Below are positions 12,516 to 27,316 of a stretch of 64,000 nucleotides of DNA, piece by piece. The position numbers and the translations under genes are program-made. Origin of the DNA: Streptosporangium saharense (GTDB lineage: Bacteria > Actinomycetota > Actinomycetes > Streptosporangiales > Streptosporangiaceae); assembly GCF_014203715.1 (NCBI RefSeq), contig NZ_JACHJP010000001.1, positions 1,156,432 to 1,220,431 of the forward strand, in the 5' to 3' direction. The stretch's first letter is position 1; every line of letters starts with the position of its first letter. A model generated the notes under the pieces. That model saw nothing but the letters and a program-made list of their open reading frames with translations. It was not told the origin of the DNA and made no database searches.

Positions 12516-13373
12516 ATGAGTGCGCAGATTCTGGACGGCAAGGCCACCGCGGCGAAGATCAAGGCAGACCTCACGGCCAGGGTGGCCGCGCTGAGGGAGC
12601 GTGGCGTCGTCCCCGGTCTGGGCACCGTCCTGGTCGGTGACGACCCCGGCAGCCAGATCTACGTCGGCGGCAAGCACCGCGACTGCGCCGAGGTCGGCAT
12701 CTCCTCCATCCGCAGGGACCTGCCCGCCACCGCCACGCAGGCCGAGGTCGAGGCCGTCATCGACGAGCTCAACGCCTCACCCGAGTGCACCGGCTACATC
12801 GTCCAGCTCCCGCTTCCCCGGCACCTGGACGCCCTGGCGCTGATCGAGCGGATGGACCCGGCCAAGGACGCCGACGGTCTGCACCCGATCAACCTCGGCC
12901 GTCTCGTGCACATGGTGGACGCGCCGCTGCCGTGCACCCCGCACGGCATCGTCCTGCTGCTCCAGGAGTACGGCGTGCCGATCAAGGGCGCCGAGGTCGC
13001 CGTGGTCGGGCGCGGCATCACCGTGGGCCGCTCGCTCGGCCTGCTGCTGACCCGCAGGTCGGAGAACGCGACGGTCACCCTGTGCCACACCGGGACCCAG
13101 GACCTGGCCGGCCACGTCAGGCGCGCCGACATCGTCGTCGCCGCGGCGGGCGTACCCCACCTGATCACCGCGGACATGGTCAAGCCAGGCGCCGCCGTAC
13201 TCGACGTGGGGGTCTCCCGGGTCGACGGGAAGATCGCCGGTGACGTCGCCCCCGAGGTCGGCGAGGTCGCGGGGTTCCTGACCCCCAACCCCGGTGGCGT
13301 CGGCCCGATGACCAGGGCGCTGCTGCTCAGCAACGTCGTCGAGGCCGCCGAGCGGCAGGTCCAGGGCGTCTAA
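12516..13373 (+). CDS. folD: methylene-THF dehydrogenase / methenyl-THF cyclohydrolase
   Basis: A 285-residue bifunctional enzyme that interconverts 5,10-methylene-THF and 10-formyl-THF, supplying the formyl donor used by purN and purH just upstream. The first domain has [18 protein letters not shown] with the catalytic Lys, and [10 protein letters not shown]. The NADP-binding half has [16 protein letters not shown], and the family signature [14 protein letters not shown] is near the end. Its stop codon overlaps the stop of the convergent exporter gene by four bases. Confidence 0.97.
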
Positions 13374-14629
13374 CCGGGGTTCTGCTCCGAGCCGCACCGC
13401 TCGGGTGCGGTCTCGGGGGTACGGCTGGCGCGCGGCCTGGCGATCAGGGCGTACGCCAGCCAGGATCCGACGCGGGCTATGGCGATCCCACCGGTCATCG
13501 CGATGGCGCTTGCGCCGCCGAGCGAGGCCAGCGGGGCGAACAGGGCGCCGAACAGGAAGCCCGTGCTGCCCAGCAGGGCGGCGGCCGTACCCGCGTTGGC
13601 CGGATGGCGGACCAGTGCGAGCGCGGTCGCGTTGGGCGAGGCCAGCCCGCCCGACATGATCGTGAAGAACAGCGACGTCAGGAACACCCAGAGCGGGGCG
13701 TGCACCAGCGCCGCGACAGCCGTACCGACACCGGTGAAGACGGCGATCAGCGCCTCGGGGACCAGCAGCCGCTCCGGGGTGAAGCGGCGCAGGAGCAGGG
13801 CGTTGAACCAGCCGCCCAGAATCAGGCCGACCGAGTTGATCCCGAAGATCAGGGAGAACACCTGCGGGCTCACGCCGTAACCGTCCTCGATCACGAACGA
13901 GCTGACCGAGATGTAGATGAACAGCGCGATGCTGCCGATGCTGGAGCCCAGGGTGCAGCCGACGAACAGCCGGTCGCGTCCCACGGCGGAGAAGCCCGCC
14001 CGCACCCTGGCCATGCCCCCGGCGTGCCGGAGGTCGGGGCGCAGTGTCTCGGGCAGGGTGAACGCCACGACCAGCAGCACCGCGGAGACCGCGGCGAGGA
14101 AGACGAACAGTCCTCGCCAGTCCACGAAGTAGAGAAGCTGGCCGCCGATGACGGGGGCGACGATCGGCGCTATCCCGCCGATCAGCATCAGCAGTGACAG
14201 GATGCGCGCCATCTGCCGGCCCTCGTAGAGGTCGCGGATCATGGCCTCGACCACGACCATCCCGGCCGATCCGGCCAGTCCCTGCACCAGACGCAGGATG
14301 ATCAGCGTCTCGATCGACGGCGCCGCCGCGCACAGCAGCGATGCCACCGTGTACGTCATCACCCCGATGAACACCGGGCGCCTGCGGCCGACCCGGTCGC
14401 TGAGCGGGCCGATGAACAACTGGCCGAGGGCCAGGCCGATCATGCAGGCCGAGATGCTCCACTGGGCGGCGCCGTCCGAGGTCCCGAGCTGGCGGGCCAG
14501 CGCGGGCAGGGCGGGGAGGTACAGGTCAATCGAAAGCGGGCCGAACGTGGACAGTGCCCCCAGGGTGAAGAGCAGTTTACGAGTCCGCGCGATCGGAGGC
14601 GGGACGGCCTGCGGGCCGTCCGCGCTCAC
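13370..14629 (-). CDS. Bcr/CflA-type MFS multidrug exporter
   Basis: A 419-residue, 12-helix major facilitator of the Bcr/CflA drug-resistance group. The first helix carries [19 protein letters not shown], typical of the group. The loop 2-3 motif is [16 protein letters not shown], and motif C-like [21 protein letters not shown] follows. The start is taken as GTG at 14629; its ribosome site is weak. It lies downstream of the minus-strand importer genes, separated by a hairpin, so it may be partly read through from them or have its own promoter. Substrate unknown. Confidence 0.85.
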
Positions 14630-14699: not shown

Positions 14700-15602
14700 T
14701 CACCGGCGCGCCCGCCGCTGCCGTCGCTGCTGGTCGAGCAGCATCCTCGCCCTGGGGTCGACGAACGCGCGCAGTGCCGAACCGGTGAGGTTCAGCAGGA
14801 ACACGAACAGGGCGATGGTCAGGCCGGGGAAGATCACCATGGTTGGGTGGGTCTGCAGGTAGGTGCGCCCGTCGGCGACCATGTTTCCCCAGGTGGCGGT
14901 GGGCGGTGAGATGCCGAGACCGAGGAAGCTGAGCGAGCCGTCGATGAGCATGGCGCCCGCCGACAACAGCACGCACTGCACCACGGCCAGCGGCAGCGTG
15001 TTCGGCAGGATGTGCACGGCGAGGGTCTTCCACGGACCCATGCCGGACACCCTGGCCGCCTTGACGTAGGTGCGGGTGGTCAGGCCGAGCACGCGGCTGC
15101 GGATGATCCGGGCCGTGTACGGGGTGAAGATGATCGTCACCGCGAGCAGCTCGCTCAGCATGCCGGGGCCGACCACGACCGCGAACACGATGGCCAGGAT
15201 GATCGACGGGAACGCCATCCAGGCGTCCACGATCCGCATGATCACCCGACCGGCCCGGGCGAAGTAGCCCGCGACCAGTCCGATGAACGTGCCCAGGGCG
15301 ACCGAGCAGAGGGTGATCAGCAGGGTCATCCCGATCGAGACCCGACCGGCTGAGGCCCATCTGGAGAACAGGTCACGGCCGTACTTGTCGGTGCCCATCA
15401 GGTGCTCGCCCGACGGCGAGAGCAACCGGTTCACCGGATCGGCGGCGTTCGGGTCGGGCAGGAACGGCGGAAGCAGCATGACCACCAGGGTGATCAGGAT
15501 CAGCAGTCCACCCGTCACGATCAGCGTGGGGTTACGCCGGACGAACGTGCGGACCCGGGTGGGGTCCGTCGTGGTCGGCGCGGTGGCGAGGTCGGCGGTC
15601 AC
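14700..15602 (-). CDS. ABC transporter permease, DppC/OppC type
   Basis: A 300-residue inner-membrane permease of the peptide/nickel/opine importer family. The N-terminal cytoplasmic segment leads into one helix, then GTDKYGRDLFSRW, the signature of DppC/OppC proteins. The membrane domain contains the EAA-like loop TYVKAARVSGMGPWKTLAVHILPN that contacts the ATPase, then SFLGLGISPPTATWG. Its GTG overlaps the stop of the upstream permease (GTGA), so the two are coupled. The ATPase partner is the fused protein encoded divergently at 18408. Confidence 0.92.
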   Translation of the reverse strand: MTADLATAPTTTDPTRVRTFVRRNPTLIVTGGLLILITLVVMLLPPFLPDPNAADPVNRLLSPSGEHLMGTDKYGRDLFSRWASAGRVSIGMTLLITLCSVALGTFIGLVAGYFARAGRVIMRIVDAWMAFPSIILAIVFAVVVGPGMLSELLAVTIIFTPYTARIIRSRVLGLTTRTYVKAARVSGMGPWKTLAVHILPNTLPLAVVQCVLLSAGAMLIDGSLSFLGLGISPPTATWGNMVADGRTYLQTHPTMVIFPGLTIALFVFLLNLTGSALRAFVDPRARMLLDQQRRQRRARR

Positions 15603-16543
15603 GACACCCGCACCTTCGGGTCGATCAGCGCGTAGGCGAGATCGACCAGCAGGTTCATCAGCACGAACAGGAACGCGATGAACATGACACCCCCCTGGAT
15701 GAGCGGGAAGTCCCGGGCGTAGACGGCGCCGAGCAGTGTGGTGCCGAGGCCCGGGATGATGAAGATGCTCTCGATCACCACCACGCCGCCGATCAGCGAG
15801 GCGAAGTTCAGGCCCACGGTGGTGAGGACCGGCAGCATCGAGTTGGGCAGCACGTGCCGCAGCATGATCCGCCGCTCGCCGACGCCCTTGGCCCGCGCGG
15901 TACGCAGGTACAGCTGGGTCAGCTCCCCGAGCACGCTCTCCTCCATGGTGATCGTGAGGAAGGCGGTCTGCCCGACGACGAGCACCGCAACCGGCAGTGC
16001 CAGCTGGGTGATCGCGGTGGCCGGGTCCTCGAACAGCGGGGTGTAGCCGCCGGTCGGGAACCAGCCGAAGGTGAGGGCGAACAGATAGACCGCCAGCAAC
16101 GCGAGCCAGAACTCCGGCAGGGCGAGGCCGAACTGGGTGGCCCGGTTGACGAGCCGGGCCACCCGGTTGTTTGGCGCCACGGTGACCCAGGTGACGATCA
16201 GCACGGTCAGCATGAAGCTGATCACCGTACTGGCGATGGCCAGGGTCAACGTGGGCGCGATGTTGTCGAAGATCATCTGCAGGACCGGGAGGTTGTACTT
16301 GATCGACGTACCGAAGTCACCGGTCAGCACGTTGCCCAGCCAGTGCAGATACTGCTCGTACAGCGGTCCGGTCAGACCGAGGTCGTGGCGTAGCCGTTCG
16401 AGCTGCTCCGGGCTGGCCTTGGTGCCGAGAAGCACCGCGGCCGGGTCACCCGGAATCGATCGCAGCAGGAAGAACAGAGCGGTGCCGACCACGAACAGCA
16501 CGATCACCAGATCGCGCAACCGGCGCAGAATGACCCCCAGCAT
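15599..16543 (-). CDS. ABC transporter permease, DppB/OppB type
   Basis: A 314-residue permease with six predicted helices. The first-helix region ends in RSIPGDPAAVLLG, typical of DppB/OppB. The EAA loop reads LYLRTARAKGVGERRIMLRHVLPN, and the segment IESIFIIPGLGTTLLGAVYARDFP is characteristic near the end. It pairs with the DppC-type permease that overlaps its stop. It follows the substrate-binding lipoprotein by six bases, giving the order binding protein, permease, permease. Confidence 0.92.
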   Translation of the reverse strand: MLGVILRRLRDLVIVLFVVGTALFFLLRSIPGDPAAVLLGTKASPEQLERLRHDLGLTGPLYEQYLHWLGNVLTGDFGTSIKYNLPVLQMIFDNIAPTLTLAIASTVISFMLTVLIVTWVTVAPNNRVARLVNRATQFGLALPEFWLALLAVYLFALTFGWFPTGGYTPLFEDPATAITQLALPVAVLVVGQTAFLTITMEESVLGELTQLYLRTARAKGVGERRIMLRHVLPNSMLPVLTTVGLNFASLIGGVVVIESIFIIPGLGTTLLGAVYARDFPLIQGGVMFIAFLFVLMNLLVDLAYALIDPKVRVS

Positions 16544-16549
16544 CAGGTG

Positions 16550-18163
16550 CTACCTCGCAAGCCAGGCGTTGGCGAACTCCAGGCCCCAGCCGTCATAGCC
16601 CTGCACCTTCGGGTTGTAGGCCACGTAGGACCTCGCGTTGTAGAGCGTCAGCGTGGGCAGGTTCTCCGAGGTGAACTCCTGGATCTTGTCGATCGCCTGC
16701 TTCTGCTCCTCCGGGGTCTGGGCCGCGTTGTACGCGGTCAGCAGCGGGGCGAGCTTGTCCCTCGGGTAGCCCATGTTGTCCATGCCCTGGACGTTGTCGC
16801 TGTAGGACGGGACGGGCGGGTTGGCGTCGTCCATCAGCGCGAGCACGTCCCAGCTGTTCGGCTGGTTGTTCTTGCGCCCGATCAGGGTCGCGAAGTCGTA
16901 GCTCTCGACTGTCGCGTTGATCCCGATCTTCTTGAGGGAGTCCTGGATGATGACCAGGGCGTCCTTGAACTGCGGGAACTCGTCCGTGGTGATCATGCGG
17001 ATGGTCTGGCCGGGACGCAGGCCTGCGGCGGCGAAAAGCTGCTTGGCCTTCTCCGGGTCGTGCTGGTCCCACTTGGCCTTGCCGGCCTCGGAGTACATGG
17101 CCTTGTTGGTCTGGGTGGCGAAGGCGCCGTTGCTCGGCAGGGTCAGGTCGGGGACGCCCTGCGACTCCATGATCGCCTTCTTGTCGACGAGCAGGTTCAT
17201 CGCGTCCCTGGCCTCCGGCTTGGAGAAGATCGAGCCGGAGTTGTGGTTGAGGGCGACGTACTGGATGTTCGCCGCGCCCTCGACCCCGATCTTGAGGTTG
17301 GGGTTCTGCTTGATCTGGTCGTACTGGTCGTACGACGGCTCGGAGATGTCGAGCAGGCCGGTCTGCAGGCTGTTGAAGGCGGCGTCGCGGTCGGCGATCA
17401 CCTTGTAGGTGATGGTGTCCAGGTAGGCACCCTTCGCTCCAGCGTACCCGCTGGACTCACCGGTCGGCGGCTTGTACTTGTCGTTGCGCTCCAGGACGAT
17501 CTCCTGGCCCGCGGTCCAGGACTTCAGCTTGTACGGCCCGGTGCCGATCGCGTGGTCCTGGGGGATTCCGGTCGCTCCCGCGGCGGCCACGTCGGCGGCC
17601 CTGCGGATGCCGCTTCCGTGACTGGCCGCCATGAGGGCGACGAGGTTGAAGGGGGCCTTGAGGGAGAACAGCACGGTGTTCTCGTCGGGAGCGGTGATCT
17701 CCTTGAGCACCGGCTTGAGCGATCCGGCGTAGCTGCCCTTCTCCACCCAGTAGCGCATCGAGGCCACCACGTCCGCCGAGGTCAGCGGCGAGCCGTCGGA
17801 GAACTGGACCCCCTTGCGCAGCGTGAAGGTGTAAGACAGGCCGTCATCGCCCTTCTTGTAAGATTCGGCCAGCACGGGCTGGGGCTGGTAGTTGGCATCG
17901 ATGGCGACCAGAGACTCGAAGATCTCGTGCCCCAGATAGCTGGTTCCGGCGTTGCTGTTCTGCACCGTGTCCAGCGATCCAGGGTCCTGGGCGAGGCGGA
18001 CGGTCAGGTTGCCGCCTCGCGCGGGCTGGCCCGCGTCGCTCTGTGCAGCCGGGGTGGCCGGGGTGGATGGGGACTTTGTGGCAGTGCCGCAAGCCGAGAG
18101 CAACAGCCCTGCTGTGACAAGGGCGATGATCTTGGGCTTACGACGTTGTCCGGTGCGATCCAT
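16550..18163 (-). CDS. ABC transporter substrate-binding lipoprotein, family 5
   Basis: A 537-residue extracellular solute-binding protein of the peptide/opine/nickel class. The start is set at ATG 18163, with GAGGAG before it, which gives a lipoprotein signal MDRTGQRRKPKIIALVTAGL and lipobox LLLSAC with Cys25 as the lipidated residue; a longer frame to 18319 has no such sense. The mature domain opens RGGNLTVRLAQDPGSLDTVQN and contains KGVQFSDGSPLTSADVVASM, the family 5 signature region. It heads the minus-strand importer operon. The ligand is unknown; the neighbouring amidase-like genes suggest an amide or peptide-like compound. Confidence 0.92.
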   Translation of the reverse strand: MDRTGQRRKPKIIALVTAGLLLSACGTATKSPSTPATPAAQSDAGQPARGGNLTVRLAQDPGSLDTVQNSNAGTSYLGHEIFESLVAIDANYQPQPVLAESYKKGDDGLSYTFTLRKGVQFSDGSPLTSADVVASMRYWVEKGSYAGSLKPVLKEITAPDENTVLFSLKAPFNLVALMAASHGSGIRRAADVAAAGATGIPQDHAIGTGPYKLKSWTAGQEIVLERNDKYKPPTGESSGYAGAKGAYLDTITYKVIADRDAAFNSLQTGLLDISEPSYDQYDQIKQNPNLKIGVEGAANIQYVALNHNSGSIFSKPEARDAMNLLVDKKAIMESQGVPDLTLPSNGAFATQTNKAMYSEAGKAKWDQHDPEKAKQLFAAAGLRPGQTIRMITTDEFPQFKDALVIIQDSLKKIGINATVESYDFATLIGRKNNQPNSWDVLALMDDANPPVPSYSDNVQGMDNMGYPRDKLAPLLTAYNAAQTPEEQKQAIDKIQEFTSENLPTLTLYNARSYVAYNPKVQGYDGWGLEFANAWLAR

Positions 18164-18407
18164 TGCGGCTCCTCGCGCCTGTTTCCGCGGGTCGGTGGCG
18201 GAGAACGTAACCCGGCCCGCCCGTCCAAGATAGGCGTCAGTGTCGGCTTTTATGTCACTCATACGAAATCGCCCTGCTCCGGGCCGTGAGTGTGGACAGA
18301 CGCCGTTCCCGATCGGCACACTGTGCCCACAGCCTTGTTAAGCGGCAGCTTTGAGGTGCAGAATCCCCGACCCGAGGTCAGGATGGCCGACGGAAAGGAT
18401 GACACCC
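18164..18407. promoter_or_regulatory. divergent promoter region of the importer
   Basis: These 244 bases separate the binding-protein operon (minus) from the ATPase-AraC operon (plus) and must carry both promoters. An AT-richer patch at about 18246-18275 (TTTTATGTCACTCATACGAAA) is the best promoter candidate. AAAGGA at 18394-18399 is the ribosome site of the ATPase gene. The AraC-type regulator encoded downstream is the likely controller. Confidence 0.5.
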
Positions 18408-20366
18408 ATGTCACTACTCGAGATAGACCGCCTCTCGGTCGGAGTGCTCTCCGACGAGGTGACCACCGATTTGGTCCACGAACTCAGTCTCAGCCTTGAT
18501 TCCGGACAGACCCTGTGCGTCGTCGGCGAGTCCGGCAGCGGCAAGACCGTCACCGTGCTGTCCATCATCCGCCTGCTTGAGTTCGTCGCCCCTGTGAAGA
18601 CCACCGGCGCGGTCCGGCTCGACGACGTCGATCTCACCTCCCTGAACCCGGCGCAGATGCGGTCCTTCCGCGGCCGCCGGATCGGAATGGTGTTCCAGGA
18701 GGCGCTTGACTCGCTCAATCCGGCGCAGCGGATCGGCGTGCAGCTCGGCGAGGCCTACTGGCCCGCGGACGCCGCCTCGCGGCGTGGTGATCTTCGTGCG
18801 CAGGGGCAGGCCAGGGCACTTGAGCTGCTGCGGGAGGTGGGGTTCTCCGATCCGGAAAGAGTGGCGAATCTTTACCCGCACCAGCTCTCCGGTGGCATGC
18901 AGCAGCGCGTGATGATCGCTATGGCGCTGATGTCCAGCCCCGACCTCCTGCTGGCCGACGAGCCCACGACCGCGTTGGACGTGACCACCCAGGCCGAGAT
19001 CCTGCGCCTGTTCCGCAAGGTGCAGCAGGAACACCAGATGGCGTGTGTGTTCATCACCCACGACATGGGCGTCGCGGCGGAGATCGCCGACCGGATCGCG
19101 GTGATGTACGCGGGCCGCCTCGTCGAGGTCGGACCCGCCGCCGAGGTGCTCAGCTCGCCCCGCCACCGCTACACGCGGGCCCTGGTCGAGTGCGTGCCGC
19201 AGGTGGGGGTGCGCCACACCCAGGGCATGCCGTCCATCGTCGGCTCCGTCCCCGAGGCGGGCGCCAAACTCCCCGGCTGCCGGTTCGCCCCGAGGTGCTC
19301 GCACGCCGAGAACCGCTGTCGCTCCGAGGAGCCACCGCTGGCCCTCGTCACCGTCCCGGTGGAGGAGATCAAGCGTCTGGATCGTTCCGAAGCGGCCGAG
19401 GTGGAGCGACCGGCGGAGGTCGCCTGCTGGAACCCGGGCGACGGTCCGGTCACCGTGCTCTCACCCGTCCCGACGGCCACCGAGGCCACGGACGAGGCGC
19501 AGGGCGAACCGCTCCTGGTGATCGACGACGTGCGCAGGGAGTTCGTCACCCGCAGCGGGCGCTCCAGCGGCCTGCTGAAGCTGCGCCGCCGTGAGCGGAT
19601 GGCCGCGGTCGACGGGGTCAGCCTGAGCATCAGGCCGGGCGAGTTCTTCGGCCTGGTCGGCGAGTCCGGCAGCGGCAAGACGACGCTCGGGCAGATCGTC
19701 TCGGCCCTCGACCACCCGACCGAGGGCACGATCACCGTGGACGGCCAGCGGCACACCTCACGTGGCCTCGAAGGCGACGTGCGGGCGTTCCGCCGTACCG
19801 TGCAGCTCGTCTTCCAGGACCCGCAGAGCTCCCTGGACCCGCGCCACAGCGTGGGCAGGATCATCGCCGAGCCGCTGCGCGAGCTGACCGACATGCGTGG
19901 CGCCGACCTGCGCCGCAGGGTCGAGCGCCTGATCGACGAGGTCGGCCTGCCCAAGGCGATCATCGACAAGCTCCCCGGACAGATCTCCGGCGGACAGCGC
20001 CAGCGGGTCGCCATCGCGCGCGCCCTCGCCCCGGAACCGCGGCTGATCGTGGCCGACGAGCCCACCTCCGCGCTCGACGTCTCGGTGCAGGGTCAGGTGA
20101 TGAACCTCCTGCTCGACCTGCGGCGCGAGCACAACCTGAGTTACCTGTTCATCACCCACAACCTGAGCCTCATCCTCTCGGTCGCCGACCGGGTCGGGGT
20201 GATGAAGAACGGCAAGCTGATCGAGGTCGCCACCCCCGAGAAGCTCGCCGCGGAGCCGCAGCACGACTACACCCGCACCCTGCTGGCGGCCAATCCGGGT
20301 ATAACCCCATCCCCGTCCTCCCCGGCGTTGCCGGAACCCGAGGGCACCGCTAGTTCGCGTCAGTGA
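18408..20366 (+). CDS. fused double ABC ATPase, DppD-DppF type
   Basis: A 652-residue protein with two complete ABC cassettes for a peptide/opine-type importer. Cassette one: Walker A GESGSGKT, signature LSGGMQQRV, Walker B LLLADEP, and an oligopeptide-type C-terminal region with a Cys-rich cluster (GCRFAPRCSHAENRC) of the kind known from DppD/OppD proteins. Cassette two, from about residue 365, has GESGSGKTTLG, ISGGQRQRVAIARAL and LIVADEPTSALD, as in DppF/OppF. The ATG at 18408 has AAAGGA eight bases before it. It powers the permeases encoded divergently at 14700-16543, and its stop runs into the AraC gene. Confidence 0.93.
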   Translation: MSLLEIDRLSVGVLSDEVTTDLVHELSLSLDSGQTLCVVGESGSGKTVTVLSIIRLLEFVAPVKTTGAVRLDDVDLTSLNPAQMRSFRGRRIGMVFQEALDSLNPAQRIGVQLGEAYWPADAASRRGDLRAQGQARALELLREVGFSDPERVANLYPHQLSGGMQQRVMIAMALMSSPDLLLADEPTTALDVTTQAEILRLFRKVQQEHQMACVFITHDMGVAAEIADRIAVMYAGRLVEVGPAAEVLSSPRHRYTRALVECVPQVGVRHTQGMPSIVGSVPEAGAKLPGCRFAPRCSHAENRCRSEEPPLALVTVPVEEIKRLDRSEAAEVERPAEVACWNPGDGPVTVLSPVPTATEATDEAQGEPLLVIDDVRREFVTRSGRSSGLLKLRRRERMAAVDGVSLSIRPGEFFGLVGESGSGKTTLGQIVSALDHPTEGTITVDGQRHTSRGLEGDVRAFRRTVQLVFQDPQSSLDPRHSVGRIIAEPLRELTDMRGADLRRRVERLIDEVGLPKAIIDKLPGQISGGQRQRVAIARALAPEPRLIVADEPTSALDVSVQGQVMNLLLDLRREHNLSYLFITHNLSLILSVADRVGVMKNGKLIEVATPEKLAAEPQHDYTRTLLAANPGITPSPSSPALPEPEGTASSRQ

Positions 20367-20380
20367 CACTGGGAGCCGCC

Positions 20381-21319
20381 ATGCCGTCCGTGTCGTCAGC
20401 CACGGTCTCTCCCGTCTCGTTCCCCACCCACAGTTTCGACGACCCCCGCATCGGTGACGGACCCCCCGGCTTCGCCATCGGGTCCTTCGCCGATCTGGCC
20501 CCCTGGTCGTACGCCCCCTACCCCCACCGGCACGAGTTCTACGAGCTGGTGTGCGTGACCCAGGGCTCGGGCACCCACGTGATCGACTTCGTGCCCTACC
20601 AGGTCGCCCCGGTCACGCTGTACTTCGTCGCCCCGGGTCAGGTGCAGTTCTGGGAGGGCCACACCCCCCTTGAGGGCTTCATCGTCACCTTCGTCGAGGA
20701 GTTCCTGGTCCCCCAGTACGGGGACCGGGTCTCCCCGCGTCAGTCCCTGGCGCTCGACCCGCTCGGCACAGGGCACGCCCTGCACCTGGCGGCCGACGAG
20801 GTCGAGCCCGTCACCGGGCTGCTGTCCGCCCTGGCCAGGGAGTACCGGCGCCCGGGCGGGGCCGACGTCTCGGTGCTCCAGGCGTACCTGCACATCCTGC
20901 TGGTCGAGATGCGCAGGTTCAGCCGGGGCGCCGACGTCCGTACCGTCGAGGAGGACAGCGGCACCGCGCTGGCCCGCCGCTACCTGCGGCTGGTGAGCGA
21001 GGAGCTGCCGTACGAGCAGAGTGTCAGCGGCTACGCCAGCCGGATCGGGGTGACCCCCAAGCACCTGGCGGACGTGGTCAAGCGCACCACGGGCAAGCGG
21101 CCCGCGGAGATCATCCGCGCCGCGCTGACCGTCGAGGCCAAGCGGCTGCTCAGGCACACCGACCTGACCGTCGCCCAGGTTTCCCAGCGGCTGCTGTTCG
21201 ACAACCCGTCGTACTTCGGCCGCTTCTTCAAGCGGGAGACCGGGACGAGCCCCGGAGAGTTCCGCAGGCGGGCCGGAGCGGCGGATTACCTCCGTTCAGT
21301 GACACGGCCGCCGACCTGA
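20381..21319 (+). CDS. AraC family transcriptional regulator with cupin sensor
   Basis: A 312-residue activator. The N-terminal half is an AraC-type cupin sensor (YPHRHEFYELVCVTQGSGTH, FVAPGQVQFWEGH). The C-terminal half holds two helix-turn-helix motifs (SGYASRIGVTPKHLADVVKR and TVAQVSQRLLFDNPSYFGRF) and the FKRETGTSPGEFRR ending. GGGAG five bases before the ATG favours this start over a GTG at 20363 that overlaps the ATPase stop. Its position between the importer ATPase and the hydrolase genes makes it the probable substrate-responsive regulator of the whole island. Confidence 0.88.
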   Translation: MPSVSSATVSPVSFPTHSFDDPRIGDGPPGFAIGSFADLAPWSYAPYPHRHEFYELVCVTQGSGTHVIDFVPYQVAPVTLYFVAPGQVQFWEGHTPLEGFIVTFVEEFLVPQYGDRVSPRQSLALDPLGTGHALHLAADEVEPVTGLLSALAREYRRPGGADVSVLQAYLHILLVEMRRFSRGADVRTVEEDSGTALARRYLRLVSEELPYEQSVSGYASRIGVTPKHLADVVKRTTGKRPAEIIRAALTVEAKRLLRHTDLTVAQVSQRLLFDNPSYFGRFFKRETGTSPGEFRRRAGAADYLRSVTRPPT

Positions 21320-21327
21320 CGAGCTAT

Positions 21328-21360
21328 TTGTGCCGCGACCTGCTGCCTAGCGTTAAGTCA
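21328..21360 (+). promoter_or_regulatory. possible leaderless promoter of the DMFase-like gene
   Basis: TTGTGC (21328-21333) and TAGCGT (21348-21353) stand just before the ATG at 21360, which would itself be the transcription start seven bases after the -10. No ribosome-binding site is visible, which fits a leaderless mRNA. The -35 to -10 spacing of 14 is short, so only the -10 is at all persuasive. Confidence 0.35.
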
Positions 21361-23933
21361 TGGAATCCTCCGTTGTGGGCATTAGGGCGCGGTTCGCCGA
21401 ACGCCGCGTCGAGCAGCTACGTTCGTTGATCACCGAGGACCTGGTGACCGCCTGGATCCACGATCCCGAGGCGGTCCACCGGGAGCCGACGAGCCTGCTG
21501 GCGAACTTCCTCGGCCAGCGGCCCGCGACCGAGCGTCTGTCCGTCTACGAACAGACCCGGCGCGAGATCTGGCGGCTGGTCCGCCCTCCGGCGCGGCGCG
21601 GCGAGACCTACCGGCTCGCCGACCGCCGGGAGTTCACCAGCCTCGACGAGGCACGTGAGGCGGGTCTGCGGCGCGAGCTGTTCGACGTGTTCGGCTGGGG
21701 CGAGGCCTCCCAGGACGCGATCGACGGGCCGGAGCTGCGGCACGAGGGACCGGTTCTGCTCGGCTACGCCGACCGGGTGAGCGCGGCCCCCGGCGACCGG
21801 GTCACGTTCATGGTCAGCGCCGAGCAGGTCGGCGAGTACACCACGGAACTGGTCAGGCTGCGGCACACCGACGACAACCCGGAGAGCCCCGGCGTCAGGA
21901 TCGAGCAGGTGCCCGACGCCTGGCAGGGAAGTCACCCCGGCCAGGAGCAGAAGGTACGGCTCGGCTCGCACATCGCCGTCCGCGACCCCCACGGCGCGAC
22001 CACGGGCACGGACGGTTTCACCGTCGCTGCCTACATCTACCCGACCTGCGTGACAGGCGGCCCGCAGGTCGTGGTGTCGCGCTGGGACCGGGGTCCGCGC
22101 GGATACGCGCTCGGCCTGGACGAGACCGGGCGGCTGACCCTCTGGCTCGGTGACGGCTCGGCCGAGAGCGCGGTCCACGCCGACGCCCCGCTTCCCCTGC
22201 ACCGCTGGTACGGCGTCGCCGCCTCCTACGACCCCGCGACGGGCCGTGCCACCCTGGTCGCCAGGCCCCTGGTGACCAGCGTGAACAGCCGGGTGAGCCC
22301 GATCGTGGTCGACGACAGGCCGCAGGTGACCGAGCAGGACGTCGCGGGCTTCGCCCCGGCCGAGCACGGGGACCTGCTGTTCGCGGCGCGCACTCCCGAG
22401 GACGACCACTACAACGGCAAGATCGAACGGCCCGGCTTCTGGCCGTACCCGCTGCCCAGGGCGGGCCTGGTGGTCGCGGCCTCCGACGACCACGACGCCC
22501 CGCTGCTCTGGTCGTTCGAGCCCGGCGAGACCGCGGCCTCGCTGGTCGTGCCGTGCCTGGGCCGCCCCGGCCTGGACGGCAGGCTGGTGAACCTCCCGGT
22601 GCGCGGTGTGACAGGACGCCACTTCACCGGGCGGGTCGAGCACTACGCCGCCGACCCGCGTGGATACGCGGCGATCCACTTCCACGACGACTCGCTCGCC
22701 GACGCCGGATGGGCGCCGAGCCACGAGTTCACCGTCCCCGACGACCTGCCGAGCGGCGTGTACGCCCTGCGGGTCGCCGCGACCGACGGCTCCTGCGAGC
22801 GGGGCATCCCGTTCGTGGTGCGCCCGCGCGCCGGAACCGCCACCGGCAGGCTCGCCCTGCTCCTGCCGACCGCGACCTACCTGGCCTACTCCAACGAGCG
22901 CGGCCTCGGTCACGTGCCGGTCGTCCCCGACGGCACGGTCTTCCTCGAACACCGCTACGACCTGGGGCACTCGGCCTACGCGCGGTACACCGACGGCAGC
23001 GGCGTGAGCTACATCTCCTGGCGCCGCCCGATCCTCACCCTGGCGCCGGGCTTCCGCGTCCACCTGTCGCCGTTCATGCTGGCCTCCGACCTGTACTTCC
23101 TGGACTGGCTCACGGAGCTCGGCTACTCCTTCGACGTCATCACCGACCACGACCTGCACGCCGACGGCGTGGACCTGCTGCGTCCCTACGCCGGGGTGAT
23201 CAGCGGCAGCCACCCGGAGTACGCCTCCGAGCAGATGATCGACGCCATCGAGACCTACGTGGACGGCGGCGGCAACTTCGCCTACCTCGGCGGCAACGGC
23301 TACTACTGGGTGGTCTCCTTCCACCCCGAGCTGCCGCACGTGATGGAGCTGCGCCGCGGTGAGAACGGCACCAGGAGCTGGCAGGCCCAGACAGGCGAGC
23401 ACCACCACGCCACCACCGGCGAGCGCGGCGGCCTGTGGCTGAACCGCAGCCGTCCGCCGCAGAAGGTGTTCGGCGTCGGCTTCAGCGCCCAGGGCAGCGG
23501 CCCCTCCGGCCGCTACCGGATCGGCCCCGACGCCGTGCCCGAGGACCTCAAGCACCTGCTCGACGGCGTGCCCGAGGTGTTCGGCGACTCCGGTCTGGAC
23601 GGCGGCGGCTCGGCCGGTGGCGAGATCGACCGTTACGACCTCACGCTGGGCAGCCCGCCCGAGGCGGTCGTGCTGGCCACCTCGGAGGGACTGCTCGACG
23701 GCTACCAGTTCGCCGTCGAGGAGCTGAGTGGCACCCACCCGGGCCACGGCGGCTCCGAGGACCCCGAGGTCCGCTCCGACATCGTCTACTTCCACACCCG
23801 TGGAGGCGGTTCCGTGTTCGCCACGGGCTCCATCTCCTACAGCGGTGGGCTGTCCGCCCACGGCTATGACAACGGGATCTCCAGGATCACCCGCAACGTT
23901 CTCGACCACTGGCTGGGTAAGAAGAATGATTGA
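21360..23933 (+). CDS. N,N-dimethylformamidase-like hydrolase, small and large subunits fused
   Basis: An 857-residue protein related to N,N-dimethylformamidase, an iron-dependent amidase built in the known enzyme from a small (about 130 residues) and a large (about 760) chain. Here residues 10-125 resemble the small chain (FAERRVEQLRSLI, later SLDEAREAGLRRELFDVFGW). They run straight into a large-chain part with a concanavalin/LamG-like domain (about 215-335) and the C-terminal catalytic domain. Candidate metal ligands by position are Tyr507 or Tyr510 in TYLAYSNER, Tyr540 in HSAYARYTDGSG and Glu620 in GSHPEYAS; the known enzyme uses two Tyr and one Glu. The LGGNGYYW segment is also conserved. 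The substrate is probably an amide or formamide, not necessarily DMF. Confidence 0.8.
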   Translation: MESSVVGIRARFAERRVEQLRSLITEDLVTAWIHDPEAVHREPTSLLANFLGQRPATERLSVYEQTRREIWRLVRPPARRGETYRLADRREFTSLDEAREAGLRRELFDVFGWGEASQDAIDGPELRHEGPVLLGYADRVSAAPGDRVTFMVSAEQVGEYTTELVRLRHTDDNPESPGVRIEQVPDAWQGSHPGQEQKVRLGSHIAVRDPHGATTGTDGFTVAAYIYPTCVTGGPQVVVSRWDRGPRGYALGLDETGRLTLWLGDGSAESAVHADAPLPLHRWYGVAASYDPATGRATLVARPLVTSVNSRVSPIVVDDRPQVTEQDVAGFAPAEHGDLLFAARTPEDDHYNGKIERPGFWPYPLPRAGLVVAASDDHDAPLLWSFEPGETAASLVVPCLGRPGLDGRLVNLPVRGVTGRHFTGRVEHYAADPRGYAAIHFHDDSLADAGWAPSHEFTVPDDLPSGVYALRVAATDGSCERGIPFVVRPRAGTATGRLALLLPTATYLAYSNERGLGHVPVVPDGTVFLEHRYDLGHSAYARYTDGSGVSYISWRRPILTLAPGFRVHLSPFMLASDLYFLDWLTELGYSFDVITDHDLHADGVDLLRPYAGVISGSHPEYASEQMIDAIETYVDGGGNFAYLGGNGYYWVVSFHPELPHVMELRRGENGTRSWQAQTGEHHHATTGERGGLWLNRSRPPQKVFGVGFSAQGSGPSGRYRIGPDAVPEDLKHLLDGVPEVFGDSGLDGGGSAGGEIDRYDLTLGSPPEAVVLATSEGLLDGYQFAVEELSGTHPGHGGSEDPEVRSDIVYFHTRGGGSVFATGSISYSGGLSAHGYDNGISRITRNVLDHWLGKKND

Positions 23934-25677
23934 GTCGCTCTCGGTCGACCGGATGGTCGCCATTCCGATGCGGGACGGCACCGTCCTGCGCGCCGACATC
24001 TACCGTCCGGTCGGGCAGCGCTGCCCCGCCCTGATCTTCCGCACGCCGTACGACCGCACAGGTCTCGGCATGTACGGCACGCTCGCGCTGCGGGCGGCGT
24101 CCAGCGGGTTCGCCGTCGTGATGCAGGACACCCGGGGCCGGGGAGCCTCGGGGGGCCGGTTCACGCCGTTCGTCTTCGAACGCGAGGACGGCTACGACTC
24201 GATCGACTGGGTCGCGTCCCAGTCCTGGTGCGACGGCAACGTGGGCATGTTCGGCGGCTCCTACGACGGGGTGACCCAGTGGCAGGCCGCCATGTCCGGG
24301 CACCCGGCGCTCAAGGCCATCGCCCCGAACGTCACGGCCTCCAGCTACCACCACGGCTGGGTCTACCGGGGTGGCGCGTTCCAGCTCAGCTTCAGCCTGG
24401 GCTGGACGCTCTCGCTCGCCGCGCACAACGCCGCCCGTGACGCCTCGGTCTCCAACGAGGTGCGCGGGGCGCTGACCGACGCCCTGGACGACCTGCAGGA
24501 CACGGTGCTGACGCTGCCCCTGGACAAGCACCCCTACCTCGACGGGGTCGCGCCGTACTACCGGGAGTGGCTGGAGCACCCCACCTACGACGAGTTCTGG
24601 GAGCGGCTCGACGTCTCCCGCGCCTACCCCGAGATCAGCGTGGCCGCCTTCAACATGGGCGGCTGGTACGACACCTTCCTCGGCGGCACCCTGGCGAACT
24701 TCGCGGGCATGCGGGCCGAGGGTCCCGAGGCGGCACGCGACCGGCAGCGCCTGCTCGTCGGGCCGTGGCCGCACGAGGGCCTGTTCAGCGGCAACCCGGT
24801 CGGCTCGTGGAACTTCGGCGCGCGCTCCACCGGAGGCGCCCTCGACGTGGACGGCCAGCAGATCCGCTGGTTCGACAGGTGGCTGCGCGACGGCGGCGAC
24901 TCGGCGGGGGAGGAGCCGCCGGTGCTGCTGTACGCCATGGGAGCCAGCCAGTGGCGGGTCGCCGACTCCTGGCCGCTGCCGGGAACCGACTACCAGGACT
25001 GGTACCTGCACAGCGGCGGCCGGGCCAACACGCTGAACGGCGACGGAGTCCTGTCCAGGGACAGGCCCGGCGACGGGCAGCCGCCGGACAGCTACGTCTA
25101 CAACCCGCGCAACCCGGTCCCCACGCTGGGCGGCTCGCTGTGCTGCAGCCCGGTGCACACCAAGGGCGGCGTCTACGACCAGCGTCCGATCGAGGCGCGC
25201 GAGGACGTGCTCGTCTACACCAGCGAGCCGCTCTCCGAGCCGCTGGACGTCACCGGCCCGATCAGCGTGGTGCTGCACGCCAGCACCTCGGCGCTGGACA
25301 CCGACTGGACCGCCAAGCTGGTCGACGTCGGCCCGTGCGGCTACGCCCGCAACGTCTCCGACGGCATCGTGCGCGCCAGCCACCGCGAACCGAAGGCCGG
25401 GCTGCAGCCGGTCGTCCCCGGCGAGGTCGTGGAGTATCACCTCGACCTCGGCGCGACCAGCAACGTCTTCCAGCCTGGTCACCGCATCCGGATCGAGGTC
25501 TCCAGCAGCAACTTCCCGCACTTCGACCGCAACCCCAACACCGGTGAGCTGCCCGGCAGGTCAACCGAGATGATCAGCGCGTTGCAGAACATCCACCACG
25601 CGGGCGCCCACCTCTCCCGTGTCGTGCTGCCGGTCGTCAGCCCGGAGGCGACGCGCCCCTACCAGACGGAGCACTGA
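23926..25677 (+). CDS. CocE/NonD family serine hydrolase
   Basis: A 583-residue hydrolase of the cocaine-esterase/X-prolyl dipeptidyl-peptidase family. The alpha/beta-hydrolase core has FRTPYDRTG, the oxyanion region VMQDTRGRGASGGRF, and the nucleophile Ser112 in GGSYDGVTQW. A jelly-roll domain typical of the family fills the last 200 residues (PLSEPLDVTGPISVVLHAS, FQPGHRIRIEVSSSNFPHFDRN). Its ATG lies eight bases inside the end of the DMFase-like gene, so the pair is coupled. The family cleaves esters or amides, so the two enzymes may act in sequence on one imported compound. Confidence 0.92.
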   Translation: MIESLSVDRMVAIPMRDGTVLRADIYRPVGQRCPALIFRTPYDRTGLGMYGTLALRAASSGFAVVMQDTRGRGASGGRFTPFVFEREDGYDSIDWVASQSWCDGNVGMFGGSYDGVTQWQAAMSGHPALKAIAPNVTASSYHHGWVYRGGAFQLSFSLGWTLSLAAHNAARDASVSNEVRGALTDALDDLQDTVLTLPLDKHPYLDGVAPYYREWLEHPTYDEFWERLDVSRAYPEISVAAFNMGGWYDTFLGGTLANFAGMRAEGPEAARDRQRLLVGPWPHEGLFSGNPVGSWNFGARSTGGALDVDGQQIRWFDRWLRDGGDSAGEEPPVLLYAMGASQWRVADSWPLPGTDYQDWYLHSGGRANTLNGDGVLSRDRPGDGQPPDSYVYNPRNPVPTLGGSLCCSPVHTKGGVYDQRPIEAREDVLVYTSEPLSEPLDVTGPISVVLHASTSALDTDWTAKLVDVGPCGYARNVSDGIVRASHREPKAGLQPVVPGEVVEYHLDLGATSNVFQPGHRIRIEVSSSNFPHFDRNPNTGELPGRSTEMISALQNIHHAGAHLSRVVLPVVSPEATRPYQTEH

Positions 25678-26675
25678 TGTCCATCAACGAATTCCGTGAG
25701 CTGGGCCGTACCGGACTGCGGATCAGCTCGGTCGGCTTCGGAAGCTGGGTCACCGGCGGCCCGGGGCTGATGGGCTGGGGCTCGCAGTCCGACGAGGACT
25801 CGGTCGCCGCCATCCACCGCGCCGTCGAGGGCGGCGTGAACTGGATCGACACCGCCGCGGTGTACGGCTTCGGCCACTCGGAGACGGTAGTCGGCCGCGC
25901 CGTGGCCGCGCTGCCCGCCGCCGACCGGCCGCTGCTGTTCACCAAGTGCGGCCTGGTCTGGGACGAGAACGGCGTGGAGAGCCAGAACCTCACGCCGGAG
26001 TCGATCCGGCGCGAGTGCGAGGACTCGCTGCGCCGCCTGGGCGTCGACTACGTGGATCTGTACCAGATCCACGCCCCCGACCCGCAGGGCCCGCCGATCG
26101 AGGAGTCCTGGGGCACCGTGCTCGAACTGGTGAAGGAGGGCAAGGTCCGGCACGCCGGGGTGTCCAACTTCGACGTCGAGCTGCTGGACCGGTGCGAGGC
26201 GGTCGGTCCCGTCGAGACCCTCCAGCCGCCGCTGTCACTGATCAAACGGGAGTCGGCGGCCGACGTGATCCCGTGGTGCGCCGAGCACGGCGCGGGTGTG
26301 CTCGTCTACAGCCCGATGGCGGCCGGGCTGCTGACCGGCACGTTCACCGCCGAGCGGGCCGCCTCGCTGCCGTCCGACGACTGGCGCTCGCGTGACGACG
26401 AGTACCGGGAGCCCGCCCTGTCCCGCAACCTGGCGCTCCAGGAGGCCCTGCGGCCGATCGCGGAGCGCCACGGGGTTCCGGTCGGCGCGGTCGCGGCGGC
26501 CTGGACGACGACCGTGCCGGGGGTGACGGCGGCGATCGTCGGCGCCCGTACCCCGGGGCAGGTGGACGGCTGGCTGCCCGCCGGATCGCTCAGCCTCACC
26601 GCCGAGGACCTGGCGGAGCTGGCGGCGGCCCTGCGGGAGACGGGCGCGGGCCGCGGCCCGATCCCGTCGGTCTAG
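25677..26675 (+). CDS. aldo/keto reductase
   Basis: A 332-residue NADPH-dependent reductase of the AKR superfamily. The catalytic tetrad can be read as Asp and Tyr in WIDTAAVYGFGHSE, Lys in LLFTKCGLVW and His in DLYQIHAPDP. The cofactor-binding end has VPGVTAAIVGARTPGQVDGW. It overlaps the CocE stop by one base (TGATG), so three enzymes form one operon. It probably reduces or oxidises an aldehyde or ketone set free by the hydrolases. Three hairpins follow. Confidence 0.93.
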   Translation: MSINEFRELGRTGLRISSVGFGSWVTGGPGLMGWGSQSDEDSVAAIHRAVEGGVNWIDTAAVYGFGHSETVVGRAVAALPAADRPLLFTKCGLVWDENGVESQNLTPESIRRECEDSLRRLGVDYVDLYQIHAPDPQGPPIEESWGTVLELVKEGKVRHAGVSNFDVELLDRCEAVGPVETLQPPLSLIKRESAADVIPWCAEHGAGVLVYSPMAAGLLTGTFTAERAASLPSDDWRSRDDEYREPALSRNLALQEALRPIAERHGVPVGAVAAAWTTTVPGVTAAIVGARTPGQVDGWLPAGSLSLTAEDLAELAAALRETGAGRGPIPSV

Positions 26676-26851: not shown

Positions 26852-27316
26852 TCAGGTGTGGCGAGGAACGTTCTCGTCCGAGGCGTAGTCCGGGTTGAGC
26901 GACAGCGCGATGAACGTGAACGGGCGGTTCACGTAGTTGAACCCGAGCGGGCAGTGCCGGGTGCCCGCGGGGATGAACACCGAACCGGTCGTGGTGACCG
27001 TGTGCCGTTCACCCTCGATGTCGAGATACAGTTCCGCGCCGAGGTCGTGGATGTTGTCCGGGTCGTTCCCCATCCAGATGAGCACCTCGTCGTAGGTGTG
27101 CTCATGGTCGTTGACCCAGTGCACCTGCTCCGTCGTGGGGTTGATCCAGCTGTAGGCCATGTGGACCGTGCTGAGGTCGACGTCGATGGCGCGCATCAGC
27201 CCGAAGGGGTCGCCGATGTTCGCCGGACGCTCGCCGCCCGCTGCGGCACCCTCGTTCACCAGGTCGTCGGCGCAGTCCCGCATGTGATGGACGAACAGGT
27301 GATCGTACTTGCCCAT
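26852..27316 (-). CDS. cupin-fold protein
   Basis: A 154-residue protein with one cupin barrel. Metal-ligand-like residues appear in HWVNDHEHTYDEVLIW (His-x-His followed by a Glu) and in FIPAGTRHCPLGF (His), the order expected for cupin motifs 1 and 2. The LGAELYLDIEGERHTVTTTGS stretch links them. GGAG precedes the ATG at 27316. It could be a dioxygenase, isomerase or binding protein; I do not recognise a named family. It faces the hydrolase operon across three hairpins and may belong to the same catabolic island. Confidence 0.8.
   Translation of the reverse strand: MGKYDHLFVHHMRDCADDLVNEGAAAGGERPANIGDPFGLMRAIDVDLSTVHMAYSWINPTTEQVHWVNDHEHTYDEVLIWMGNDPDNIHDLGAELYLDIEGERHTVTTTGSVFIPAGTRHCPLGFNYVNRPFTFIALSLNPDYASDENVPRHT

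Follow-up and report, generated by a model that had tools for sequence, protein, structure and literature searches.

The window, by which we mean the whole 64,000-nucleotide stretch of Streptosporangium saharense DNA that was analyzed, contains a gene for a fused amidase related to N,N-dimethylformamidase (DMFase), set among transport, regulatory and enzyme genes (Table 1). An Opp-type importer, an AraC regulator, a CocE-like hydrolase, an aldo/keto reductase (AKR) and a rare cupin stand beside the fused amidase in all five genomes of its clade. The MFS transporter is 85% identical in S. carneum (L044), the sole other locus extending that far, and the second ABC permease is present in two of the four fused-clade relatives, the remaining two loci stopping short of its position. 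As judged by eye, a lipoprotein-like start of the solute-binding protein probably lies near 18163; the true start of the double ABC ATPase is probably downstream of 18351. The cupin-like protein is 82 to 94% identical in 4/4 relatives, with an orientation that differs among genomes. Another genome (G243) has two cupin copies, and no amidase, CocE or AKR matches were found in the 19.5 kb around each, so that the cupin gave no hint of the substrate.

Table 1. Genes, domains and putative active-site residues of the amidase cluster (positions in the window; synteny refers to the four fused-clade relatives)
Feature	Position	Strand	Evidence
MFS transporter adjoining importer genes	13370..14629	-	Pfam
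Second ABC permease	14700..15602	-	Pfam BPD_transp_1
ABC permease	15599..16543	-	Pfam BPD_transp_1; syntenic 4/4
Solute-binding protein family 5	16550..18319	-	Pfam SBP_bac_5; syntenic 4/4
Double ABC ATPase with oligo_HPY domain (Opp/Dpp type)	18351..20366	+	Pfam; syntenic 4/4
AraC-family regulator with AraC_binding sensor domain	20363..21319	+	Pfam HTH_18 and AraC_binding; syntenic 4/4
Fused DMFase-like amidase, 857 aa	21360..23933	+	ORF, Pfam, PDB sequence match, model
Small-subunit (alpha-like) domain, residues 1-113	21360..21698	+	Profiles 27.6-38.6 bits; fold match 6lvb_B
Short linker, about residues 114-127	21699..21740	+	Between last small-subunit-aligned and first large-subunit-aligned residue
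Large-subunit (beta-like) part, about residues 128-857: Ig-like, pentraxin/LamG-like, alpha/beta catalytic domains	21741..23930	+
Laminin_G_3 (pentraxin-like), residues 204-296	21969..22247	+	Pfam E 3.6e-12
DMFA2_C, residues 426-837	22635..23870	+	Pfam E 5.2e-93
Tyr510 (DMFase Y399), putative iron ligand	22887..22889	+	Alignment; 56/56 rows
Tyr540 (DMFase Y440), putative iron ligand	22977..22979	+	Alignment; 56/56 rows
His618 (essential DMFase H519)	23211..23213	+	Alignment; 56/56 rows
Glu620 (DMFase E521), putative iron ligand	23217..23219	+	Alignment; 56/56 rows
Asn646 (active-site DMFase N547)	23295..23297	+	Alignment; 56/56 rows
CocE/NonD-family hydrolase	23926..25677	+	TIGR00976; 3ida_A; syntenic 4/4
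Aldo/keto reductase	25677..26675	+	Pfam Aldo_ket_red; 3n2t and GSP69; syntenic 4/4
Small cupin-like protein	26852..27316	-	Weak Cupin_2, below cut-off

The amidase frame and that of the CocE-like hydrolase, counted from its ATG, overlap by 8 bases, and the two genes are probably cotranscribed. The closest solved relative of the hydrolase is cocaine esterase (3ida_A, E 4.3e-126), of which it keeps S117, D259, H287 and Y44, which we take to be the catalytic positions, as well as W151, W166 and F261, three aromatic positions that presumably belong to the cocaine-esterase pocket; Gln55 is replaced by Leu. The cluster probably imports and breaks down an amide or ester compound, but a place in one operon with an esterase is no proof that both enzymes act on the same compound.

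The amidase frame is intact and forms a single uninterrupted ORF, the N-terminus of which, judged by eye, has no signal-peptide-like character. Fused homologues with 70 to 87% identity are encoded in four other actinomycete genomes (L051, L052, L053 and L054), where internal stops are likewise absent; because the same stop-free fused frame recurs in these genomes, an assembly error is unlikely. Between the window and L051, dN was lower than dS in both modules (residues 1-113, dS 0.24 and dN 0.051; large part, dS 0.29 and dN 0.075). Recurrence in five genomes, the absence of internal stops and dN below dS indicate that the fused gene is real and under selection. Its full-length model reached a mean pLDDT of 91.1 and a pTM of 0.91, with only 6 of the 56 alignment rows being full length and so supporting its N-terminal part. 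For folding, we used a small-module alignment (A2) and an alignment of fused and large-subunit sequences (A3), from which 28 of the 79 large-subunit rows, being over 80% identical, and the odd-length L062 were left out. A joint alignment of small and large subunits (A1) was dropped for this purpose, as it wrongly aligned the 15 small-subunit rows with the large part. The core claim of the first-pass annotation, a fused single-chain DMFase-like enzyme in this frame, holds, with both folds and the ligand set recovered.

In a PDB sequence search, residues 133-852 aligned to the DMFase large subunit (6lvb_A) with an E value of 7.4e-142, and by fold comparison (VIA) residues 127-856 matched the same chain with a Z score of 52.8 and 1.9 Å over 723 residues, at a sequence identity of 37 to 38%. 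The Pfam matches bear out the domain order proposed beforehand, a LamG-like domain followed by the large-chain catalytic domain. Because DMFA2_C in Pfam spans the C-terminal part only, matches to it are uninformative on the fusion. Paracoccus DMFase binds iron through Tyr399, Tyr440 and Glu521, with His519 being essential and Asn547 an active-site residue (PMC7686228), and we read the equivalent positions from the 6lvb_A alignment using that numbering. Inspection of the iron-ligand positions, a check suggested by the first-pass annotation, revealed Tyr, Tyr and Glu, which, like the His and Asn, are invariant in 56/56 rows, the window itself included. Of the ligands it had named (Tyr507 or Tyr510, Tyr540 and Glu620), Tyr510, Tyr540 and Glu620 were recovered in the alignment and Tyr507 was not; the Tyr-Glu spacing is indeed 80 residues here, but 81 in DMFase (Y440-E521) rather than the 80 assumed. 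DMFase S395 corresponds to Thr506 in the alignment, and the specificity-limiting F693 aligns to Gly791, in a diverged, poorly alignable loop.

The relation of the N-terminal part to the DMFase small subunit, to which it is ∼20% identical, rests on profiles and a predicted fold because single-sequence comparison misses it. Residues 1-131 had no phmmer match among PDB sequences at an E value of ≤10, and dmfA1 alone gave only 4.1 bits in either direction, as might be expected if the first 113 residues were an unrelated helical extension resembling the small subunit by chance. Against this, profiles from which the window sequence and its four close relatives had been withheld scored the N-terminus at 27.6 bits (6-seed profile) and 35.5 bits (wider set), compared to at most 10.0 and 9.7 bits, respectively, in 2000 shuffles of the same residues (of which 1707 and 1780 received a score). 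An AlphaFold model of residues 1-140 (mean pLDDT, 82.2) retrieved 6lvv_B, 6lvb_B and 6lvd_B as the only Foldseek matches above noise (E 9e-4 to 7e-3, probability 1.00). Superposition of the N-terminus on the DMFase small subunit, as had been proposed, placed model residues 1-113 on residues 15-130 of 6lvb_B with a Z score of 11.2 and 2.6 Å over 111 residues (VIA), versus a Z score of 3.8 for the next unrelated chain. Furthermore, the domain lies where split relatives carry an upstream small-subunit gene, and no separate small subunit was detected elsewhere in the genome at an E value of ≤0.1; in this search, which used a 19-row small-module alignment and scored 150 of 267 first-look candidates, only the N-terminus of this ORF matched (E 5.2e-33). 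A chance likeness is thus scarcely credible. By profile score and predicted fold, residues 1-113 are a fused DMFase small subunit.

We placed the family on a tree of 94 rows, leaving out L044 (same genome as L051), L048, L062 and L072. Sequences were labeled as lacking a small subunit at a small-subunit profile threshold of E 1e-3; a wider profile moved L013 from this group to the split one, and L052, missed by the first profile and found with the wider one, was labeled as fused by hand. The fused clade lies on a separate long branch (1.13), apart from Paracoccus DMFase, and the tree implies two or more independent origins of the small-to-large fusion, one in the actinomycete clade of the window and one in L065. 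None of 19 class-sample loci (L131-L149) had a small domain sharing the large frame. Long frames before large subunits were considered as further fusions and rejected, since L045, L046, L047, L057, L060, L087 and L097 gave no small-subunit signal (best score, 0.3 bits, in a set that also included L108 and L120); in L045 and L046 the N-terminal extension resembles a signal peptide instead. In six split pairs (L055, L056, L081, L010, L011 and L077), the two genes are in frame and separated by a single stop. Stop-codon read-through was set aside for them in favor of ordinary adjacent genes, the simpler explanation because a possible start codon (ATG; GTG in L077) lies within ten codons after each stop.

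Within the DMFase family, the fusion represents a new architecture and not a new kind of enzyme; what is new is a fused clade of five genomes with a shared cluster. The suggestion that a fused form with a different substrate would constitute a new amidase type is not supported, as AceAB and N-acetyl-(R)-beta-phenylalanine acylase, both relatives of DMFase, act on other substrates. Screening the literature by title and start of abstract revealed no fused DMFase among the papers listed, which is weak evidence of absence since most subscription papers lie outside such a search.

With a probability of about 0.85, we interpret the protein as a single-chain mononuclear-iron amidohydrolase of the DMFase family, with small and large subunits joined, that belongs to a regulated catabolic operon. 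The domain order, both folds and the conservation of Tyr510, Tyr540, Glu620, His618 and Asn646 are established by comparison of sequences and models. By analogy with characterized DMFase, Fe(III) held by two phenolates and a carboxylate would bind the amide carbonyl and water, and His618 would act as the base, with acid and amine as the hydrolysis products. On the same analogy, the small domain, being part of the chain, would stabilize the large part, line the substrate entrance and enforce a 1:1 stoichiometry. The gene context suggests a cytoplasmic amidase in a regulated catabolic operon: the Opp/Dpp-type importer would bring in an amide-containing compound, the amidase would cut the amide and the CocE-like hydrolase either an ester or another acyl bond, with the AKR and cupin possibly acting on a product.

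The enzyme probably acts on a larger compound rather than on DMF, because F693 aligns to Gly791, the clade has its own long branch, and Pfam recognized no C1 or dimethylamine genes in the part of the cluster scanned; poor alignment of the F693 loop makes the argument from substrate size a weak one. A possible but doubtful alternative is an N-acyl amino acid or amine acylase acting on an N-acylated aromatic compound whose ester is cut by the CocE-like partner. The acylase structures 8huy and 8i5a are the second closest solved relatives, with Z scores (52.7 and 52.4) nearly equal to that of DMFase, and retention of the three presumed pocket aromatics in the CocE-like neighbor would fit such a substrate; against it, the acylase chains compared from the PDB are large chains only, and the fused amidase has a small domain. 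Far less probable is a true DMFase, hydrolyzing DMF or N-alkylformamides and merely fused. As might be expected of one, all five catalytic positions are kept and the large part is 37 to 38% identical to that of DMFase, but the clade is apart from the Paracoccus branch, F693 does not appear to be kept, and the neighbors, an importer of the peptide type, a hydrolase resembling cocaine esterase and a reductase, include no recognized C1 genes. AceAB is reported in a review to be highly identical to DMFase without activity on DMF (PMC11573777).

Besides the free chain and the N-terminal domain of an enzyme, the DMFase small subunit also occurs as the C-terminal tail of an ABC permease. Rhizobial plasmids and three or more actinomycete genomes, and so members of two phyla, carry such fusions to a branched-chain-type permease, the actinomycete forms being 45 to 49% identical to the rhizobial one along nearly the whole chain. 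A DMFase-like large subunit is the next frame in L009 (Rhizobium plasmid) and in the actinomycete loci L154, L156 and L149. Were the permease tail to lie on the cytoplasmic side, the amidase would be docked where the importer releases its substrate. Tentatively, the small subunit might be a transferable domain linking an iron amidase to its substrate supply, the window cluster representing a soluble version of import-coupled amide catabolism; were this so, the cluster would serve a substrate and pathway not yet described. The DMFase large subunit alone is inactive, and the small subunit has been suggested to stabilize it and take part in substrate entrance (PMC7686228). The natural one-chain form, with its fixed stoichiometry, lends itself to truncation, domain exchange and mutation in studies of this role, and the permease-linked form, which occurs in two phyla, allows a direct test of whether the small subunit helps to deliver substrate. 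The conserved cluster also provides a genetic handle on a natural substrate in a family best known from man-made chemicals (DMF and acetamiprid).

Compared with known systems, the fused amidase shares the Ig-like, pentraxin-like and ThuA-like alpha/beta domains of the large subunit, the ligand positions, the His/Asn pair and the small-subunit fold with DMFase-type iron amidohydrolases, but as one ORF, also in L051-L054, it departs from DMFase in the strict sense, which has separate small and large chains. Paracoccus DMFase (DmfA1/DmfA2; 6lvb-6lve, 6lvv and 7w8j) has both subunit folds and, by alignment, the same two-Tyr, one-Glu ligand set, essential His and active-site Asn; in contrast, it consists of two chains (alpha2beta2), and its pocket is closed by F693 from the neighboring subunit, which aligns to Gly791 in a poorly conserved loop of the fused amidase. 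The neighborhood of the P. aminophilus pAMI2 DMFase gene also differs from the fused-amidase cluster, and the clade is separate. N-acetyl-(R)-beta-phenylalanine acylase (8huy, 8i59 and 8i5a) matches the large-subunit fold across some 700 residues at 37% identity (Z 52.7), but its chains start at the large-subunit part, with no small domain in the PDB chains compared. AceAB, the DMFase-like acetamiprid amidase of Pigmentiphaga sp. D-2, has two subunits versus one chain here and a substrate other than DMF; a review describes it as highly identical to DMFase yet inactive on DMF (PMC11573777). The split pairs L055 (Actinobacteria MAG), L056 (Domibacillus), L010 (Aminobacter) and L011 (Halalkalicoccus) contain the same two modules in the same order, but as two adjacent genes in one reading frame with one stop between them; around L055, L056 and L011, importer, AraC, CocE, AKR and cupin gave no match at an E value of ≤1e-5. 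Finally, the permease-linked pairs (L009, L154, L156 and L149) carry the same small-subunit module, but joined to an ABC permease instead of the large subunit.

Domain searches placed the large part of the fused amidase with the large subunit of N,N-dimethylformamidase (DMFase). Pfam assigned a Laminin_G_3 domain to residues 204-296 and DMFA2_C to residues 426-837 (E = 5.2e-93), and NCBIfam contained no family for the ORF at E ≤ 0.1. In a PDB sequence search, residues 133-852 aligned with the large subunit of Paracoccus DMFase (6lvb_A, E = 7.4e-142) and residues 132/133-849 with N-acetyl-(R)-beta-phenylalanine acylase (8i5a_A, E = 2.5e-118; 8huy_A, E = 2.7e-118). From residue 127 on, the whole-chain AlphaFold model (mean pLDDT, 91.1; pTM, 0.91) superposed on 6lvb_A with a Z score of 52.8 (1.9 Å over 723 residues); the corresponding values for 8huy_B were 52.7, 2.5 Å and 696 residues.

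With DMFase residues numbered as in PMC7686228, Y399, Y440, E521, H519 and N547 aligned to Tyr510, Tyr540, Glu620, His618 and Asn646, respectively, all of which were identical in 56 of 56 rows containing the large part, including the window. The first-pass annotation had left the first iron ligand between Tyr507 and Tyr510; the alignment selects Tyr510 and drops Tyr507. It had also taken the Tyr540-Glu620 spacing of 80 to match DMFase, which is correct for the window protein but not for DMFase, where the spacing is 81. F693 of DMFase, a residue of the neighboring subunit that limits the pocket, aligned to Gly791 within a diverged loop.

The N-terminal module was recognizable as a small subunit by profile and fold. 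By phmmer, residues 1-131 had no PDB match at E ≤ 10, and dmfA1 of P. aminophilus scored 4.1 bits in both directions. A profile of six small subunits tied to dmfA1 through clear matches gave 27.6 bits, which became 38.6 bits upon addition of a seventh, more distant small subunit; with a wider profile, from which the window protein and its four close relatives were excluded, the score was 35.5 bits. The top scores in 2,000 shuffles were 10.0 bits (six-member profile) and 9.7 bits (wider profile), a control covering the 27.6-bit and 35.5-bit profiles. Modeled from 19 rows (mean pLDDT, 82.2), residues 1-140 began with a long helix, continued through short helices and strands and ended in another long helix, in agreement with the DMFase small subunit, for which PMC7686228 describes four helices and two strands. 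In Foldseek and VIA searches of the PDB with this model, only DMFase small subunits rose above noise: they held Foldseek ranks 1 to 3 (E = 9e-4 to 7e-3; probability, 1.00), and VIA superposed 6lvb_B with a Z score of 11.2 (2.6 Å over 111 residues), the next unrelated chain scoring 3.8. No free small subunit was found in the genome, since the whole-genome search with the small-module alignment (E ≤ 0.1; 150 of 267 first-look candidates scored) returned this ORF alone.

Coordinates and sources of the fused proteins and the cluster cupin
Feature	Position	Strand	Source
Fused amidase ORF, 857 aa, intact	21360-23933	+	window
Cluster cupin	26852-27316		window
Fused form	L051		Streptosporangium carneum
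Fused form	L052		Saccharothrix obliqua
Fused form	L053		Actinomadura spongiicola
Fused form	L054		A. pelletieri
Permease-small-subunit fusion	L009:5654-7309		Rhizobium sp. NIBRBAC000502774 plasmid pMK-2
Permease-small-subunit fusion	L154:7231-8799		actinomycete
Permease-small-subunit fusion	L156:9925-11514	-	actinomycete
Permease-small-subunit fusion	L149:1197-2663	-	actinomycete

Across 84,980 species genomes, a pattern-based scan yielded 226 pattern matches; among the best 80 of 168 relative-encoding loci, four carried the fused form at 70 to 87% identity. Another fused frame, in a gammaproteobacterial MAG (L065), is less certain because it lies on a MAG contig. Of 100 relatives searched, 38 gave a match at E ≤ 0.001; the fused protein was present in two, G006 and the window's own genome. 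Another strong match (G033), interrupted by a contig end, stands outside this count. Among 394 genomes of the class, 23 matched at E ≤ 1e-30, unbroken from residue 1 in the window's own only. Nineteen of the other 22 loci were fetched: none had the small domain within the large frame, eight had it upstream in a frame of its own, and for the remaining 11 it was not detected within the short flank. Of 93 large-subunit frames at other loci, five were fused and another 22 were immediately preceded by a small-subunit frame. In the majority (60 of 93), no small subunit was detected just upstream, and these large subunits may act alone, as the acylase chains do, or with a partner that escaped recognition; six lay too near a contig end.

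In a 94-row tree, inferred by a quick method and with several weak deep forks, the five actinomycete fused rows formed one clade (support, 100; stem, 1.13). L065 fell outside it, and the fusion therefore arose at least twice on this tree. Because the two genes of six split pairs (L055, L056, L081, L010, L011 and L077) are in frame with each other and separated by one stop codon, stop loss offers a simple route to fusion, and such pairs likely represent its precursor state. Against the S. carneum protein, dS and dN were 0.24 and 0.051 for residues 1-113 and 0.29 and 0.075 for the large part; against that of A. spongiicola, they were 0.65 and 0.306, and 0.54 and 0.194. dN was below dS in both modules, less strongly so for the small module in the more distant pair.

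The small subunit was also found fused to a transporter. On plasmid pMK-2, a 552-aa protein combines a branched-chain-type ABC permease (residues 133-396) with a C-terminal small-subunit domain (E = 2.7e-57), and the next gene encodes the large subunit. This fusion was covered to at least 80% by 26 of 27 matching plasmid records, the majority being near-identical Agrobacterium records and the lowest identities those of Aminobacter sp. MDW-2 (61%) and Ensifer adhaerens (57%); a Caballeronia record matched over the small-subunit part only. In the class sample, three actinomycete genomes of three genera within one family (G312, G327 and G334) had the same domain order in frames of 489 to 530 aa, 45 to 49% identical to the Rhizobium protein across 488 to 508 residues and each followed directly by the large subunit. 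Long upstream frames in two other genomes (G174 and G241) contained no detectable permease domain and were not counted. These fusions suggest that the small subunit, provided the permease tail faces the cytoplasm, may link the amidase to an importer, in keeping with its position at the substrate entrance.

Around the amidase, the order permease, solute-binding protein, double ABC ATPase, AraC regulator, amidase, CocE-like hydrolase, aldo/keto reductase and cupin was kept in all four other species of the fused clade, with the cupin gene in either orientation. A second permease was present in two of the four, the other two loci ending before reaching it, and an MFS gene in the sole other locus reaching that far (L044, S. 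carneum). The CocE start and amidase stop overlap by 8 bases. Around 9 + 8 loci outside the clade, compared over about 11 to 19 kb each, so that genes farther off would escape, no CocE, aldo/keto reductase, cupin, AraC, solute-binding or permease homologues were found at E ≤ 1e-5, and ABC ATPase matches, around some loci, were weak only. The nearest solved relative of the CocE-like hydrolase was cocaine esterase (E = 4.3e-126), followed by alpha-amino acid ester hydrolases (2e-54). It shares with cocaine esterase the triad, Tyr44 and three aromatic positions of the pocket, but not Gln55. The cluster cupin is uncommon, matching two of the 394 genomes of the class at E ≤ 1e-20. Contig C12 of G243 encodes this type twice (L161 and L162), both without the amidase cluster in the 19.5 kb around each, and one copy adjoins an AraC gene 32% identical to that of the cluster.

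A second DMFase-like large subunit was present in the window's own genome (L046, on contig C9) and in S. carneum (L045), with no small subunit detected; by eye, both start with a signal-peptide-like stretch and may therefore be secreted. Two more proteins of the window's genome passed the DMFA2_C cut-off, one on contig C2 (L001, E = 7e-103) and one on contig C6 (L004, E = 2e-76). A full-length search with the window enzyme did not find the former and matched the latter remotely (E = 4e-8); the Pfam family is therefore wider than the close DMFase-like amidases.

Comparison establishes the module order, folds, ligand set and gene cluster. By analogy with DMFase, the enzyme would carry out Fe(III)-assisted amide hydrolysis, and its small domain would probably close the substrate entrance of the chain to which it belongs. 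More tentatively, the substrate may be an amide of greater size than DMF that is imported and might carry an ester as well. No description of a fused DMFase was found in the open-licence literature among the matches listed. Other substrates are already known within the family, since AceAB cleaves acetamiprid and reportedly lacks activity on DMF (PMC11573777), and the PDB names one member N-acetyl-(R)-beta-phenylalanine acylase. By the features tested, the window enzyme belongs to this known family, except that it is a single chain whereas DMFase consists of separate chains.
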